In this document: positions 18,360 to 38,370 of the stretch, piece by piece
Numbering within the stretch: position 1 is the stretch's first letter
Layout: every line of letters starts with the position of its first letter
Assembly (NCBI RefSeq): GCF_003473485.1
Contig: NC_053046.1
Span: 41,749,832-41,813,831 of the forward strand
From: Medicago truncatula
Taxonomy: Eukaryota > Streptophyta > Magnoliopsida > Fabales > Fabaceae
Length of the DNA: 64,000 nucleotides
Direction: 5' to 3'
Position numbers and translations under genes: made by a program
Notes under the pieces: generated by a model
The model's database searches: none
Told to the model about the DNA's origin: nothing
The model's input: only the letters and a program-made list of their open reading frames with translations

Positions 18360-18439
<80 letters not shown>
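18360..18439 (+). tRNA. tRNA-Leu (anticodon UAG)
   Basis: 80 bp folding as a class II tRNA. The acceptor stem GACAGTT pairs with AGCTGTC, followed by discriminator A. Box A reads TGGCCGAGTGG. The anticodon stem CCAGA/TCTGG encloses TTTAGGC, placing TAG at 34-36. There is a long variable arm, and the T arm GTGGGTTCAAATCCCAC contains box B. No intron, and CCA is not encoded, as expected for a nuclear gene. Downstream T runs from 18443 can serve as a Pol III terminator. Confidence 0.96.
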
Positions 18440-18899: not shown

Positions 18900-20747
18900 A
18901 TGTCATTAGACTATTTTAAGGATGATGTATGGAACAAAAGTTTTTGGGGTGATATTGAATATGCTATGAGTGATAATAAAAATGGTAGTAAGATATTTAT
19001 TACCTCAGGTGAGATTGAATATGCTATGAGTGATAATAAAAATGGTAGTAAGATATTTATTACCTCAAGAAGTATGGATGTTGCAGTGTATTGTAAGAAA
19101 TTTTCTTTTATTGAAGTGCATGAACTACAACCTTTAACAGAAGAAAAATCATTTGATTTGTTCAACAAGAAGGCATTTCAATTTGACTTTGCAAGGGCTT
19201 ACCACTAGCAATTGTTACTATTGGTGGTCTTTTATCTACAAAGGAGAGAAATGCATTTGAATGGCAGAGATTTAGTGAAAATATGACTTTAGAGCTAAGG
19301 AATGATTCCGATTTGATCGGGATAAAAAAGATTTTAGGATTTAGCTACGATAATTTGCTTTTTTTATCTTAAATCCTGTTTGTTATATTTTGGAATGTAT
19401 CCAGAAGATTATGAAGTTAAATCAAAGAGAGTGATTCTACAGTGGATAGCTGAAGGGTTTGTGAAGGAGGAAAGTGGAAAGACTTTGGAAGAAGTTGCTG
19501 AAGTATATTTAACTGAGTTGATTCGTCGTAGTTTGGTGCAAGTATCCTCAATTAGAATTGATGGAAAAACTAAAAGTTGTTTTGTTCACGATTTGATACG
19601 TATGATGATCCATGAAAAGTGTGAGGAATTAAGTTTTTGCAAGCATTTCAATGAAGATGGTCATTCATCTTTAAGTGGAACTCTTAGACGCCTATCAGTA
19701 ACAACCAATTCCAGTGATTTCATAGCACGTATTGAAAACTCACATATTCGGTCACTACAACTTTTCACAAATAAAAATTTAGATGAATCCATGGTGAATA
19801 GAATCTTGAAAAAGCACAGGACACTGAAGGTGCTTGATTTTCAAGATGACTCATTGATTATTGATTTTAAACATTTTAGAAGTCTGGTCCACTTGAAATA
19901 TTTAAGCTTCAAGATTAGATCCGAACAACACCAAAATGTACTTCCCAAATGGATTGGTCTTCTCCTAAATCTGGAGACCTTGGATCTAAGGGCTTCTTAT
20001 TATTGTAGCGTTATACCAAAGGACATTAGCAAACTTAGAAAGCTACGCCATCTTATGGGCTACAAGATGTGTTTGTCTAAATGGAAGGATGTTATAGGAT
20101 GCATGGAATCTCTACAAACATTGAGTGCAGTGAAAATTGGTAAGGGTGGAATAGAGTTAATTAAAGAGTTGAGAAAGCTAAGGCAGTTAAGGAAGTTGAA
20201 CTTGTTTTATGCGAGGGCAGAACATTTTAGCGCTTTATCTTCCTCATTGAATGAGATGCGACACTTGAAAAAATTAAGCATTGTATCAGGATGGGGACAA
20301 GATTTTGTTTATGATGTCATTGATTTACATTTGGTTTCGCCTCCACCTATGCTTCGAAAGCTTAAACTATGTGGCAAGTTGAAGAAGTTTCCAGAGTGGG
20401 TTCCTCAACTTAAAAATCTTGTTAAGTTTGATTTAGCAAATTCCTTCTTAAATGATGATCCAATTAAGTATCTAGAAAACATGCTAAACATGTTGTCCCT
20501 CTCAATCATCTACAATGCTTATGAAGGCGAAAGCTTACATTTTCATGACGGAGGTTGTCAAAATCTAAAGGAACTGTACATTGGAGGCTTGCTCAACGTG
20601 AATTCAATTGTTATCGATAAAGGAGCATTGCATTCTCTAAAATTGTTTGAGTTATTCCATATCCCCAACCTCAAGACGGTTCCTTCTGGGATCCAACACC
20701 TAGAGAAGCTTGAAGTTCTACATGTTCCGTATGAACTCCTTGCATAA
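18900..20747 (+). pseudogene. CC-NB-LRR (RPM1-like) resistance gene, 5'-truncated and broken
   Basis: The order is that of a plant CNL from kinase-2 onward. DDVWNKSFW (kinase 2, ~18918) comes first, then GSKIFITSRSMDVA (RNBS-B), VHELQPLTEEKSFDLF (RNBS-C), GLPLAIVTIGGLLS (GLPL, ~19194, frame +1), LYFGMYPEDYEVK (RNBS-D, ~19381), VHDLIR (MHD region) and then LRRs. From 19380 a 455-aa frame stays open to the stop at 20747. The coiled coil and P-loop are missing; frameshifts lie near 19195 and in the T-run near 19362. A 60-bp unit in RNBS-B is duplicated in frame. The open LRR frame suggests that the breakage is fairly young. Making a functional receptor is unlikely. Confidence 0.85.
18948..19067 (+). 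repeat. 60-bp in-frame tandem duplication within the NB domain
   Basis: Units at 18948-19007 and 19008-19067 differ at one base (GATATT/GAGATT) and each encode YAMSDNKNGSKIFITS. The unit is a multiple of three, so it does not itself break the frame. It duplicates the RNBS-B strand. Confidence 0.95.
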
Positions 20748-23925: not shown

Positions 23926-23974
23926 ATATTTATAGTTTAAGCTTACACTCCCCGGACATTGGAAGAAGGAGGCG

Positions 23975-25769
23975 ATGGATACTCCGATGGCGGAGGCGGC
24001 AGAGTCAATCTCCGATGATGACGGCATTGACAGAATAAACCAACTACCAAACTCCTTACTACATCACATCCTCTCCTTCCTCCCTACCAAAACCTGCGTT
24101 CAGACCACACCCCTCGTTTCTCGCAAATGGCGCAATCTATGGAAGAATCTCGAAGCCTTGGATTTCTGCGACAGTTCCAGCCCCCAAATTTATGAATTCG
24201 ATAACGACGAACAGTTCTTGATCTTCTCCGTTTTCGTCAACACTGTCCTCACTCTCCGCAAATCTCGCGTTGTTCGGAAGTTCTGTCTCTCATGCTATCA
24301 CGTTCAACTCGATCCCTTCTATAACCACTCGATTGATACGTGGATCAATGCCACCATTGGCCCAAACCTTGAGGAGTTTCATCTTACTCTGCTTACCGCC
24401 GCCGGCTTCAACAGGGTGCCTCTCTCCCTCTTCTCTTGCCCTAACCTTGTCTCTCTCAGGTAACAATTCCTTTTTGTTTTTTATCGTCAAATTCTCTAAA
24501 AATGTCATTATATAAGTTTGTTAGTCTGTGCTTCATGGAACTGGATAATTAAGTTCACATGACAGTCAAGTTAACAGGTTATAGTAGTAGGGACTACAAA
24601 TATATTTAATTTTATATTTGCACAGTTCAGCTGTTCTCTGATTTAGTTTAAATGAGATATGATATGTTGACATAACATTCATGTAATGTACTTTCAGTTT
24701 CAATGACTATATCATTCTGCAATTGCAAGACAATTCGAAAATTTGCTTACCGTCACTGAAGTTGCTGCAACTACTAGACATGTATAATTTGGATTTAAAT
24801 TCTGTGAATGCCCTTCTCTCTGGCTGTCCTGTTCTCGAAAATCTGGAAATTTCTTTTGCTCCTGAATCTTTGGCCACACTTCGGCTGTCATCTTCAACCT
24901 TGAAGAGGTTAAAAATCGATGTTGAGAATGAGGTTGGGGCTTACCTTGAAATAGACGCTCCTGATCTCAAGTACCTTAGCCTCACCAATATCATGTTTCT
25001 TAATGCTGCTTCTGTTGGGAACTTGCACAATGTGGAAGAAGCACATCTTGATGTATTTTCCACTCATAGAGCTCCGTCTTCTCCGAGCACAAGTGAATCT
25101 GTTGAACCTGTACTCCGTCTTCTCCAAGCTCTCTCTGGAATTAAACATCTAAAGCTGCTTAGTTCAACAACAAAGGTGACTGAAGTTTTCATAATTTGTA
25201 TTATATGCTGCTTTGTATTAATTATTATTTAATAAACAGTTAATCACTTGATTTTGTTTTGTACAAGCAGTGGCTATTTGCCGCCCCTGTTTTAGATTTT
25301 CCAGAATTTTGCCACTTGCTTTATCTAGAGCTCTGGCTTCTCTCTTTCAACTCAAGTTTTCTGATTGACATGCTTCAAAAATGTCCTGTGCTACAAACTC
25401 TCATAACATTCAACGACAAGGTTTGTCTAGAGCTTTGTTGTGTGCATGTGTTTTTTGTTTGGATCTTATATGTGAGTTGTCCATTGTTGCCAGATGCATC
25501 CATCATATGATTCATCACCTTCATATGGATGGGAGGTGAAGCCAAAAAGTGTTCCTAAATGTCTCGTATCCCATTTGACCTTTATTGACCTTCAAAGATA
25601 TCTAGGAAATTCAAATGAGCTGGAGTTTACAAGCTATGTTTTGCAAAATGGACTTGTTTTGAAGACAATGCTTATTAGTGGTTTTTCGCTAGAACAACGG
25701 GGGGAATGGTTGAAAAAAATCTCCAATCTACCAAGGGCATCTGCCATGTGTCAAGTTACATTTCACTGA
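23975..25769 (+). CDS. F-box/FBD/LRR-repeat protein
   Basis: Four exons with GT-AG introns: 23975-24459, 24698-25175, 25271-25420 and 25494-25769, giving 462 aa with consistent phases. An N-terminal F-box lies at about residues 18-60 (INQLPNSLLHHILSFLPTK, then VSRKWRNLW). A central LRR-like region has repeated CPNL/CPVLENLEIS motifs, and a C-terminal FBD-like part ends SHLTFIDLQRYLGNSNELEF. Proteins of this large plant family act as substrate receptors in SCF ubiquitin ligases through SKP1/ASK; substrates are mostly unknown. The length is typical and the frame intact. The first ATG lies in good context; Met5 is a possible alternative. Confidence 0.9.
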
Positions 25770-34442: not shown

Positions 34443-35263
34443 TTGGACATAAGGGTAAAATATTTTGTGACTAAGTCAAAGCTGAGAAGGAGGTTTGTTC
34501 TTGATGGAGGATCCCAAGTGGCGTGCTGTAGGCAACATGTTTCTCATATGCCTATTTTCCATTTGGAGCAGCAGGTCATCATAATGAACCATCCTGGTTA
34601 CGTTATTATTGTTTGTAGAATAGAACACAAATAATCTGCAAGTCCTAGCTCAACTGGCAAAATGCCGAAATTGTTAGGCCGATGCCATGACTGGGGTTCG
34701 AACCCCGGTACCTCCACTTGTGTGTGTGAGTTTATAATGACTTTGTCATTTCGTCTATCTACCAAAAAAAGAATAGAACACAAATATCAAGGCTTCTCTT
34801 TCTATTTCTATATACTATTACTATAAGATCCTCAAAATCTTGTGCAACTTATGGACGGCATAGTTTCTTCAAGAACTCGTCAGGCTAAGTTTCTTTTTAA
34901 TCATGACATCTATTCTGATAGATACACTTTTTCTGTTGAAATCGTCCCCATTTGCTACGGGGATTTGATTTTTCTGCCTCCTAAGGTTGCATCCAGTTGG
35001 GAAATATTAGTCCTATTATCATTTGTAGGTTGCTAAAAGAATTACTTTGCTTGATTTTCACCTTGAGGTACTGTATCTTAAATGTTGATCAGTACTGGAA
35101 TGCACTTTTCACGCCTTCACTCACTAGGAGTCAGTTAGTGGAATATTCTGTGCTCGATATTGTTGAGAGATATTCTGTGGTTCCATATTATGCAAAATAT
35201 GTAGACATAAGCAACAAAGATAGTGAAACTGTAACAGCCAATAGACAAATAAATTCACAGTGA
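34443..35263 (+). pseudogene. NMD3: NMD3 (60S ribosome export adaptor) pseudogene
   Basis: Pieces in order match plant NMD3. CRQHVSHMPIFHLEQQ lies at ~34528. After a SINE come SDRYTFSVEIVPICYGDLIF and LPPKVASS (~34915-35000), then IFTLRYCILNVDQYW (~35057) and LTRSQLVEYSVLDIVE (~35125). NMD3 exports the 60S subunit through CRM1. Frames shift between the blocks and stops occur, only the middle of the protein is present, and no start is seen. A nearby functional gene is not in this window. Confidence 0.8.
34634..34769 (+). mobile_element. tRNA-derived SINE, intact-looking, inserted in the NMD3 pseudogene
   Basis: 136 bp with Pol III box A TAGCTCAACTGG (~34646) and box B GGTTCGAACCC (34695-34705), ending in an A run. 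It is flanked by a perfect 17-bp target duplication AGAATAGAACACAAATA (34617-34633 and 34770-34786). It is not a real tRNA gene: there is no acceptor stem or anticodon arm. Confidence 0.93.
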
Positions 35264-35919
35264 AGAATGCAACTTGCTCCACAAATTAGATACAGGTAAT
35301 TATTGTTTGTATTTTTCACATTTCAAGAAATTTTCAACTACTAGTACTACTATATATCCACAGCTCTAAGCCTAAATAGAGGAGGTGTTTGCTATAATAA
35401 CATGGACATTTAGTATGATCCACACTCCACTCATAATAGAGAAAGGTTGACGATTTAGATCGTTCCAAAAACCTTTGCCATGCAAAACAACTTTTAATAT
35501 GATTCGCATCTTTCTAATCCATATCTATGTGCTTCGTATTTGCAAACGACTTTTTTTACGATTGGCATCTTCCAAAATCTTTTGAATAAATTCATGTTCG
35601 TACCTGCAAAAGTTAAAACTTTCAATTCATTTATGCATATAGTTTTGAACTTATTTAGTCAAAAAAACATATAAAGTGCAATCTGACTATCAGTTTTTCA
35701 CAAGAACAAGTTGTCGCATAGAATACAAAAACTGCACTGAAACTTAAAACAAAACTTAAACAACAAAATATTTCATGTCTAAATTTCTTGATGGTAAATT
35801 ATACTTCAATTGATAGCAGCTATAAAGAAGAGCAGATTTCTTTTCTTTTCTGTTTTTACCAATTCACATACCTTCCGAGACTATGGAATTATATTATATC
35901 ATATTCTTAACTGCTATCG
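35264..35919. other. Spacer 3' of the NB-ARC-TIR gene
   Basis: Searched on the minus strand for an exon continuing the TIR gene; none recognised. AT-rich and without clear repeats. Confidence 0.4.
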
Positions 35920-37491
35920 CTAGTAAAGTAAAAATTGGTTATTATAGAATAATGCAAATAGAAGTCTTTTGAAGGATATTACATACCCGGTTGTATAAGC
36001 CTTTCCGGACAAATTCGACACTTCAAACAAAGCTGACTTCCATTTCTGTACTCTCTCTGAGTCAATTCCAAAATTATTTTCATGTTGAGCCATGTCTTCG
36101 CCATAACAATTTCTCAAATGCCTTATGTCTGACGGTTTCACTTTGTAAAAGATTGGCCAAACTAATTGATTCTTCAATTTCATACACTCCATAATTTTGA
36201 CAAGTTCTTCAAGACACCATGAGGAATTCGCATAGTTTTCAGACAAAATGATAATCGACAGCCTTGATTCTTCAATTGCATTTAGAAGAGTGGGTGAAAT
36301 TTTGTCTCCAGTGTGCAGTCCTCCATCATCCATGAAGGTCTTGAATCCCCCTTGACATAAAGCTTTATACAGATTACCTGTAAAAGAGTAGCGTGTATCT
36401 TCTCCTCTAAAACTTAAGAAAATTTGCCATTTGGCCATTGAATGTCTCAGACTATCTAGTGATGCTTTCCATTCCTCAATTGGTTTACCTCTTAAGGAAG
36501 ATCCCACATCTTTAATTGTTCTCGGTAACCCTTCGCATTCAAAGGAAACTTCACGTGCCACATTCAATAAGTCAAATGAAGACGAGTGCCCTTCATCATG
36601 AATACCAGAATGTTTTTGGAACAAAGTCCAAGATTCCTCTATAGATAAGGGACCAAGTTGAATATTCCTTTTGGAGTGCATCAATTCACAATCTTGTTGG
36701 GCAAGTGCGGTCAAAAGGATCTTGCATCGATTACTATTACAAGGAATGCCTACATCTTCTGGATCAAATTTTACCCGAACATCATCGAAAATCACTAGAA
36801 TTGGACGACTCATACTTTCTATTCTTGAGAATATTCTTCTTGCTCTTACAGTTTCACTTTTTTTATCGAATGTCATGTCTAACAAGTCAGCAATTTCTTC
36901 TTGCATAGTTCTGATATTCAGGTTTTGCGTCACCGTGGCAAATAAAACCTCATGAAAAATCTTTAGATGCTTAACTTTCTCACCCATTGCTTTTGCCAAC
37001 GCTGTCTTACCAGAGCCCTTGCTACCATACAATCCAATCATAGAGCAATTATCATCTCGCAGTGCCTCTAAAATTTGATCTGAAGTCTTATCTCTAGACT
37101 TAAAACACAAAATATTTCCTGAAGAGAAGTGCTCTAAACTTGGAATTGGAGTTGAAAATGGATCAAATTCGCATTTTACATTCAACGCAGTTATTTTTCT
37201 CAGCAATTTCCTAAATTCATTCCATTGTCGTTTTCTTGATTGTAGTGTCAGATTTTCAACCTCTTGCATGAGTATATCTGTTTCTTTTAGCCACTCAAAC
37301 ACAGCATCGTTGACCTTTTCAGTTTTGTGATCAGTTGCTTCAACTTTTACGCGCACAAGATCTCGATTTGAAATCAGCCTATTCTTTTCTGTTTCGACTT
37401 CTTCAAAGACTTTGCCGAACCAATCAGATAGATATTTCTTTCCTTCATCGTCCTCTAACACCATCTTTACCGCCTTACCAACAAAAAACAT
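35920..37491 (-). CDS. NB-ARC-TIR protein (reversed domain order, no LRR)
   Basis: One open frame of 523 aa. Residues 1-150 are helical and Lys/Glu-rich, like the end of an RPS2/RPS5-type coiled-coil region. An NB-ARC domain follows: P-loop GLYGSKGSGKTALAK (153-167), kinase 2 ILVIFDDV (231-238), RNBS-B CKILLTAL (256-263), RNBS-C LGPLSIEESWTLFQ (279-292), and GLPR instead of GLPL (321-324). A complete-looking TIR domain then runs from about 355 to 500: FLSFRGEDTR (358-367), SENYANSSWCLEELVKI with the conserved Glu429, and a WPIFYKVKPSDIRH strand. No LRR or MHD motif. Canonical TNLs put TIR first. Met352 directly precedes the TIR, as if a TIR gene start were fused in frame. A CTTTGCAG acceptor just upstream (~37519) suggests that a first exon may exist; a GTATGT donor at TTG|GTATGT-like sequence (~35986) may end the TIR exon. 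Confidence 0.85.
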   Translation of the reverse strand: MFFVGKAVKMVLEDDEGKKYLSDWFGKVFEEVETEKNRLISNRDLVRVKVEATDHKTEKVNDAVFEWLKETDILMQEVENLTLQSRKRQWNEFRKLLRKITALNVKCEFDPFSTPIPSLEHFSSGNILCFKSRDKTSDQILEALRDDNCSMIGLYGSKGSGKTALAKAMGEKVKHLKIFHEVLFATVTQNLNIRTMQEEIADLLDMTFDKKSETVRARRIFSRIESMSRPILVIFDDVRVKFDPEDVGIPCNSNRCKILLTALAQQDCELMHSKRNIQLGPLSIEESWTLFQKHSGIHDEGHSSSFDLLNVAREVSFECEGLPRTIKDVGSSLRGKPIEEWKASLDSLRHSMAKWQIFLSFRGEDTRYSFTGNLYKALCQGGFKTFMDDGGLHTGDKISPTLLNAIEESRLSIIILSENYANSSWCLEELVKIMECMKLKNQLVWPIFYKVKPSDIRHLRNCYGEDMAQHENNFGIDSERVQKWKSALFEVSNLSGKAYTTGYVISFKRLLFALFYNNQFLLY

Positions 37492-38370
37492 GGCATATCG
37501 AAGATTTGCTGCTGCTGCAAAGTTTTATTGATGTAAACATTTAAATCAGCATACGTTTCACAATGAATTTCATTTTCACTTTTCAATGTAAAATGAATAT
37601 TATTTTTTTCAATTGTGTCTTCTAATATATACAATATTCCCAAAGTACTATATTCTATTAACGACGGTGGAAAACACATCAATAGTTAACAAGATTAATG
37701 TAATAAAAAGTGTCATGTTGTTTTACATACAATTTTATTGCATTTCTTACTCTGTGTGTACAGACTTTGAACGACGTATGCAATTTAAAACGGAGAGAGT
37801 AACTGAAACAAAAATTTAAATGAAAGGAATTGGAACTCACACATGTTGCAGCATGCATAAAGGATGTATCAATGAATTTTGAATAAATGAATGTCTCTTA
37901 GCTTCAACTCTTAGCTTCAAAGTAGAAGGTTAGTCAACAAATAAATGGTTGGAGGGTGAGTGGTAGATGTATATATTGTGAAGTGTGATGTGATCAGCTT
38001 CCAACTAGACTCTATATATGAGATATCATCAAGTCAAGTCCACACTTTTGTGTAGTAACAATAATGATGGCTATGTGATTATTTCATAGGAAGCTTCATT
38101 TATAAATAAGAAGCTGATTCAAACTTGAACTCACCAAAACTTACAAGAAAGAAACAAGTAGTCAACCTGGTTTGTTTCTTCAACGAAAATACAGAGAAGA
38201 TAGAATGGGGTCCTACTTCAATTATTAATCTTGGTTCGGAAAATCTGTGGGCATATAAAAAGAGTTTTTTTTATTTCTTCTCTCAATTGAATTTTTTTAT
38301 AAACAACGTAAAAAATCAAACATTCACCAAAAAAAAAAAAAGTAAAAAATCAAACTAATAAAAACAAATA
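37492..38370. other. 5' flank of the NB-ARC-TIR gene
   Basis: AT-rich, no convincing ORF. An upstream first exon could lie here, but no CC-type coding stretch was recognised. Confidence 0.35.

Follow-up and report, generated by a model that had tools for sequence, protein, structure and literature searches.

A clustered Medicago truncatula gene family with a predicted CC-NB-ARC1 module joined in frame to a downstream TIR domain

The window analysed here, a 64,000-nt stretch of the 430-Mb Medicago truncatula genome (C5:41749832-41813831), carries on its minus strand an open frame of 534 codons (35920..37524). Across 30 first-order Markov versions of the window, the longest stop-free frame was 155 codons, and chance is therefore excluded for a frame of this length. 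Pfam placed an NB-ARC domain (PF00931, 3.6e-30, residues 145-365, profile positions 2-227 of 248) upstream of a TIR domain (PF01582, 6e-42, residues 365-508), and the motifs P-loop GSKGSGKT, GLPR, SFRGEDTR and CLEEL were all present. The initial annotation had described a single undecayed frame running from an RPS2-like NB-ARC into a TIR, with an intact P-loop, GLPL changed to GLPR, and SFRGEDTR and the Glu of CLEEL kept; the Pfam domain order and seven further in-frame copies bear this out, with the Glu kept and GLPL altered in all eight copies. Its statement that MHD and LRR are missing also stands, as homology to CC-NB-LRR (CNL) proteins ends at the join and a Pfam scan of the focal frame at E 0.001 returned neither an LRR nor a winged-helix family; the missing winged-helix match counts for little by itself, since the winged-helix match of the control CNL L017 fell below its cut-off and L021 gave none. 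The window contained no match to a degenerate GG-x-GKTT P-loop pattern, probably since the focal P-loop differs. Against the PDB, the TIR half best matched RPV1, Roq1 and RUN1 (8e-43 to 2.6e-40), while the best entry matched mainly via the NB half was 9h2l ('NB-ARC domain-containing protein'); single-sequence AlphaFold prediction of the fusion protein returned a pLDDT of 34.8, too low for use.

Comparison with paralogous copies gave the following predicted gene structure (window coordinates):

37813..37907, minus strand: conserved 5′ block with predicted exon 1 and splice donor (blastn to upstream DNA)
37841..37844, minus strand: coding portion predicted for exon 1, an ATG and one further base (GTGAGT donor from 37840)
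37515..37840, minus strand: predicted intron 1, GTGAGT ... TTTGCAG (paralog comparison)
35987..37514, minus strand: predicted exon 2, with CC, NB, ARC1 and TIR in one frame (open frame, Pfam)
36430..37092, minus strand: NB-ARC match, NB and ARC1 only (PF00931 profile 2-227 of 248)
37003..37026, minus strand: P-loop GSKGSGKT (G-x4-G-K-T in 8/8 copies)
36424..36441, minus strand: fusion join S-M-A-K-W-Q, where CNL-like homology ends and the TIR starts (BLASTP)
35987..36423, minus strand: TIR domain (PF01582, 6e-42; RPV1, Roq1, RUN1)
36205..36207, minus strand: putative catalytic Glu, second E of WCLEEL (aligns with the E of WCLDEL in RPV1)
35604..35986, minus strand: predicted intron 2, GTATGT ... 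TTTTGCAG (alignment of nine copies)
35525..35603, minus strand: predicted exon 3, the 25-residue tail YEHEFIQKILEDANRKKSRLQIRST plus stop (alignment of nine copies)

The predicted focal protein has 536 residues in the order CC-NB-ARC1-TIR-tail and includes the stretch SLRHSMAKWQIFLSFR; the TIR query used in genome searches begins at window position 36423. Elsewhere in the window, 19190..20747 (+) holds the winged-helix and LRR half of a different CC-NB-LRR gene, a 469-codon frame with WH_DRP and LRR_14 that has short CNL homology just upstream (19190..19357), and 23936..25232 (+) holds exons of an F-box and FBD-associated LRR gene. A stretch at 34640..34720 with GGTTCGAACCCC is tRNA T-arm-like by eye and is perhaps a tRNA-derived SINE; ARAGORN found no tRNA in that interval, its only call being a tRNA-Leu at 18360..18439.

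The initial annotation had presented a single gene. The fusion exists as described, but it is not isolated, being one among eight in-frame copies of the same genome. Searched against the genome, the CC-NB half gave at least 116 matches (114 of 683 first-look candidates scored), the TIR half at least 150 (150 of 469 candidates scored) and a 92-residue peptide spanning the join at least 150 (150 of 428 candidates scored). Chromosomes 3 and 6 carried many of the NB-ARC and TIR matches. At eight places, compared by eye, an NB match runs into a same-strand TIR match with 0 to 3 bases between them:

C5, 41.446 Mb: join of c445
C5, 41.466 Mb: join of c465
C5, 41.500 Mb: join of c498
C5, 41.515 Mb: join of c513
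C5, 41.522 Mb: join of c521
C5, 41.566 Mb: join of c564
C5, 41.576 Mb: join of c574
C5, 41.786 Mb: join of the focal copy

These copies form a cluster spanning 41.445-41.787 Mb of C5 (~342 kb), and in each of the eight the join falls where ARC1 ends. The order NB-ARC then TIR was also found by Pfam in the three further copies scanned (L010, L015 and L016) and in the alignment of all eight. An assembly error joining two genes, a caveat of the initial annotation, is unlikely in view of eight genomic copies whose frame runs unbroken, and we rejected it on finding the same join at seven other loci. The ten best matches of the join peptide all lie in the cluster, comprising the eight copies, the NB-deleted c471 (41.472 Mb) and a broken copy at 41.492 Mb; weaker matches starting at or before query position 10 showed 48-61 % identity. 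Three matches on other chromosomes were inspected and none shows an NB-ARC followed by a TIR: at C6:5.136 Mb (L039, 619-codon frame), a candidate second reversed fusion, the TIR precedes the NB-ARC and the candidate was rejected; at C6:34.34 Mb (L037) the TIR is likewise ahead; and at C6:36.80 Mb (L035) no NB-ARC-like frame was found in the 1.5 kb before its TIR.

At the 5′ end of the gene, the whole of block 37813..37907 was matched by blastn upstream of c498 and c521, and parts of it in c513, c564 and c574. The exon 1 and donor sequence ATGTGTGAGT (ATGT/GTGAGT, the slash marking the splice site) is present in the focal copy, c521, c574, c564 and c498; c513 matches part of the block, but the ATGT/GTGAGT motif was absent in the scan, and exon 1 was not found in c445, c465 and c471 within the DNA examined. 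Joining ATG-T to the next TTTGCAG acceptor gives an in-frame start in four copies, with the predicted N-termini MSAANLRYAM (focal), MSGKKPYAV (c521), MSGRKPYAV (c574) and MSGKNPYAV (c564). The start at 37491 given by the initial annotation is thus probably not the first Met, given an acceptor-like TTTGCAG at 37515-37521 and the conserved ATG-T/GTGAGT at 37841-37844. Its 3′ end needs revision as well, as 35920 falls within a predicted intron; coding would leave exon 2 at 35987 and end at 35525, and the C-terminal residues YVISFK... correspond to predicted intron 2 in the alignment of nine copies.

A GT..AG intron separates the TIR from the short last exon in the focal copy, c465, c498, c513, c445 and probably c471, and the predicted tails stop 17-32 codons past the TIR in 9/9 copies examined (the splice donor of c471 being uncertain). 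A second NB-ARC or an LRR after the TIR, as follows the TIR exons of TIR-NB-LRR (TNL) genes, was rejected on account of these stops. In c521 (C5:41.521), c564 (41.564) and c574 (41.574 Mb), intron 2 is exactly absent, with the tail codons directly after the TIR, while predicted intron 1 persists, a pattern like that of a cDNA-mediated conversion affecting the 3′ part. Such exact loss is what cDNA gene conversion leaves and would imply a past spliced transcript, exact deletion being the alternative; its occurrence in three copies is what one would expect had spliced transcripts existed in the past.

The CC and NB-ARC1 portion is homologous to L017, L018 and L021 (39 % identity to L017). Outside the cluster, its NB-ARC is closest to L017 (42 %), L018 (40 %) and L019 (39 %), whose frames begin CNL-like without a TIR, a lineage call that follows from these nearest matches. 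By BLASTP, the CNL homology of the focal protein extends as far as Ser351 in comparison with L017 and L021, and as far as Ala353 with L018. The Pfam NB-ARC match reaches profile positions 247 and 248 in L017 and L021, and 225-227 in the focal copy and three paralogs; L017 and L021, the two CNL relatives scanned, continue into RPS2-type LRRs. In a tblastn search of the window with four CNL frames as queries (L017, L018, L019 and L021, each 865-899 residues and ended by the locus edge), ARC2 and LRR sequences had no match near the focal gene. The only matches, at 19.19-19.60 kb (+), belong to a different CNL, and a CNL-type ARC2/LRR continuation of the focal gene was rejected on these grounds.

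Such a gene is most simply derived from a CN piece and a TIR-X piece that were joined locally. An in-frame fusion would have linked the 5′ piece (CC, NB and ARC1) of an RPS2-like CC-NB-ARC-LRR gene with a gene of TIR-X type, in a region that houses genes of both sorts, the TIR-X part contributing the TIR plus a short spliced tail. L021, a CNL, lies inside the cluster span. So do L038 (C5:41.595 Mb) and L032 (41.645 Mb), which carry tandem TIR exons and are likely TIR-TIR genes; in both, the second TIR comes soon after [YF]EYxxIQKIVE, the sequence that begins the TIR-tail exons.

Trees of the NB and TIR halves share their main groups, c498 with c513 and the focal copy with c465 and the c521, c574 and c564 trio. 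Placement of c465 differs, as the NB tree groups it with the focal copy (89/90) but the TIR tree with the c521 trio (90/88), and the stand-alone TIRs of L032 and L038 sit in an unresolved fork among the fusions in the TIR tree; a single fusion is therefore not proven. One old fusion that was later duplicated would nevertheless be the simplest account of the agreement between the trees. Gene conversion within the cluster could mimic co-descent and lower divergence, and could strengthen all of these signals.

The initial annotation had proposed comparing dN/dS of the two halves, and both medians are below 1. Over the 28 pairs of the eight copies, which are not independent of one another, median dN/dS was 0.59 for the CC and linker, 0.38 for the NB-ARC and 0.27 for the TIR. 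Values below 1 were obtained in 28/28 pairs for the NB-ARC, in all 28 for the TIR and in 27/28 for the CC and linker, the top pair of which reached 1.21 and another 1.00, so that the CC half is weakly constrained. Pooled dN/dS was 0.31 over the 20 codons preceding the TIR and 0.23 over the 20 that open it; individual 20-codon windows peaked at 0.75 (NB half) and 0.61 (TIR). Codons are thus constrained on both sides of the join, suggesting that the join is probably translated. A splice between the halves, the other caveat of the initial annotation, would be unlikely given eight uninterrupted genomic frames.

Several members of the array are visibly damaged, with a frameshift and a stop at 41.4916 Mb, an NB deletion at 41.472 Mb, a TIR split by a frameshift near 41.5975 Mb and, in c445, a stop in the 5′ region and a shorter frame. 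Such copies raise the idea that the whole set is recently dead or dying, a tandem array of NLR debris with frames open by chance. However, in a substitution-only neutral simulation of the focal exon, 27/1000 versions stayed open at 5 % changed sites and 0/1000 at 10 % or more, while all eight real frames are open although the focal copy stands at a dS of 0.38-1.47, by domain, from the seven others. Copies c521, c574 and c564 are recent relatives (mutual dS 0.05-0.16) and count less. We accordingly regard decay of the family as improbable.

The low dN/dS of the TIR also bears on a second alternative, in which the TIR-X part is the unit that matters and the CC-NB-ARC1 part is a passenger that gives a promoter and first exons, or in which the TIR is translated from an internal Met. 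Met352 is present in three of the eight copies (focal, c498 and c445), and in c521, c574 and c564 a Met falls five residues further on, as the first residue of the TIR, so that in 6/8 a Met either opens the TIR or lies no more than five residues from its start. The sequences neither show nor exclude Met352 as a former TIR gene start or an internal TIR start. Copy c471 (L030, C5:41.471-41.473 Mb) has lost most of its NB region in frame and keeps the CC, the end of ARC1 and the TIR open over 345 codons, as might be expected if the TIR were the part that counts. Against this, the NB-ARC is itself constrained in every pair and keeps its P-loop in 8/8 copies, constraint extends to the codons preceding the join, and neither Met occurs in c465 or c513. 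This second alternative, in either form, therefore seems distinctly unlikely to us.

Motif content is mixed. Walker A (G-x4-G-K-T) is kept in 8/8 copies, the Walker B Asp-Asp in 7/8 (changed in c445) and the putative catalytic Glu of WCLxEL in 8/8. GLPL is kept in none of the eight, being replaced by GLPR, GLPG or RLPG, and the RNBS-B Arg is kept in four (TTR in c445; TAR in c521, c574 and c564) and lost in the focal copy. TTR, GLPL and MHD are described as functional motifs of the NB-ARC, and the TIR Glu as a requirement for both NADase activity and cell death (PMC9806590, available in part). With GLPL altered and the ARC2/MHD region absent, the copies do not have the make-up of a STAND-type nucleotide switch; these losses, together with the altered sensor motif, speak against ordinary nucleotide gating, which may have been lost. 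The nucleotide-gated TIR enzyme or helper suggested by the initial annotation would still be possible.

These features are reminiscent of a decoy or brake, a protein with little enzyme activity whose TIR or CC-NB stub is inserted into nearby CNL, TIR-TIR or TNL complexes, dampening them or baiting a pathogen protein. The altered GLPL, the sensor Arg lost in the focal copy and the missing ARC2 and LRR fit such a role, as do the CNL and TIR-TIR genes within the cluster span. A pure decoy would, however, need neither the WCLxEL Glu and P-loop that all eight copies keep, nor a TIR more constrained than the NB half (0.27 versus 0.38), and we consider this explanation unlikely, if still deserving of attention.

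The reading that we favour, at a little under an even chance, is that of a CN plus TIR-X fusion whose CC-NB module bears a TIR enzyme and serves to dock or restrain it. It draws on the sequence and its copies, the gene structure obtained by comparison, the selection estimates and the kept motifs; transcription, enzyme activity, partners and use of EDS1 are what we infer from them. Under this reading, the C-terminal TIR would be the output, an NAD+-cleaving enzyme that requires TIR-TIR contact. CC-NB-ARC1 would act as a docking or regulatory module, binding related CC-NB-LRR receptors or itself, keeping TIRs apart at rest and gathering them upon activation, and the activated TIRs would feed EDS1-type signalling. 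Without ARC2, a canonical wheel with a nucleotide lock is unlikely.

Precedents for parts of this scheme come from articles available in part. TIR-only proteins are activated by self-association and condensation, which BB-loop and AE mutations reduce or abolish; when RBA1 was given the RPP1 NBD-LRR at its C-terminus, condensation was disrupted and cell death was weaker (PMC10972746). Association with clustered TNLs is described for Arabidopsis TN10, a truncated TN protein (PMC8069298). The CN half of the fusion might, by analogy, bind relatives such as the CNL of the cluster and set the local TIR concentration.

If so, the family may represent a separate legume-lineage class of TIR enzyme with inverted NLR order, in which a C-terminal TIR is held in check by a CC-NB-ARC1 stub without a sensor of its own and CNL receptors are linked to TIR/EDS1 signalling in a single polypeptide; we offer this as a speculative proposal that is on balance doubtful. 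In plants, the CC and TIR signalling branches normally sit in different proteins. The cluster offers natural material for three questions: does a TIR function when placed C-terminally, is a CC-NB module that lacks ARC2 and LRR able to gate it, and do CNLs have the capacity for direct recruitment of TIR output? Should the family exist across legumes, it would be one more architecture to consider in crop resistance loci.

In M. truncatula, Ameline-Torregrosa et al. reportedly described fusions, novel domain compositions and atypical NBS combinations in 2008. The grouping used for the Arabidopsis pan-NLRome disregards domain order (PMC6709784), and the NLR-ID pipeline filters out TIR before integrated domains are listed (PMC4759884), according to the available portions of both papers; such fusions would therefore be counted with the TIR classes, and surveys that ignore domain order have a blind spot that would hide reversed fusions. 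Similar labels do occur in partly accessible sources. The 'CC-NBS-TIR' of PMC2893199 was apparently written in error for CC-NBS-LRR, and 'NBS-TIR' in PMC4008172 and PMC2175511 occurs inside TIR-NBS-TIR-NBS-LRR. Table 1 of PMC4881053 lists 20 'CC-TIR-NBS' genes in barrel clover, the most of any species there, a label that may or may not cover members of the fusion family. The accessible parts of PMC11734081, PMC9871256 and PMC10318170 name no such domain order, and our literature search found no report of a CC-NB-TIR protein without LRR, a weak negative from a search that took in few subscription articles.

Among known systems, TIR-X and TIR-only proteins (Arabidopsis RBA1 and TX14) share with the fusion a plant-type TIR, the conserved Glu, a short non-NB tail and the lack of an LRR, but their TIR is N-terminal and free of NB-ARC, whereas that of the fusion follows a CC-NB-ARC1 module. 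CN proteins and RPS2-like CC-NB-LRRs resemble it in the CC and NB-ARC1 with a kept P-loop; the fusion differs in stopping at the end of ARC1, without ARC2/MHD or a C-terminal LRR, and in ending with a TIR. TN and TIR-NBS-LRR proteins likewise combine a TIR with an NB-ARC, yet the fusion has the reverse order and an NB-ARC of CNL type. As in catalytic plant TIRs, the WCLxEL Glu is present throughout the family, making it a putative NADase. In the animal protein SARM1, the TIR is C-terminal. SARM1 is alike in that its TIR, an NADase, is mounted on a scaffold holding the TIRs apart (PMC9153377, a review available in part), although this scaffold is ARM-SAM rather than NB-ARC and no common descent is claimed; in plant and bacterial NBD proteins, by the same source, TIRs are attached N-terminally. 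A TIR downstream of an NB domain is also found in the TIR-NBS-TIR-NBS-LRR proteins of Arabidopsis (AT4G19500, AT4G36140) and in one TIR-NBS-LRR-TIR (Bra011665), as given in the accessible text of PMC4008172; those begin with a TIR and have LRRs, whereas the fusion begins with a CC and has neither feature. A single cashew 'NBS-TIR' gene (a table of PMC9616956, seen as an excerpt) is named for the same two domains, though the label may not give their order. By its predicted architecture, the fusion fits none of TN/TNL (by order), CNL (by ARC2 and LRR) and TIR-X (by its NB-ARC), and is built like a CN protein plus a TIR-X protein.
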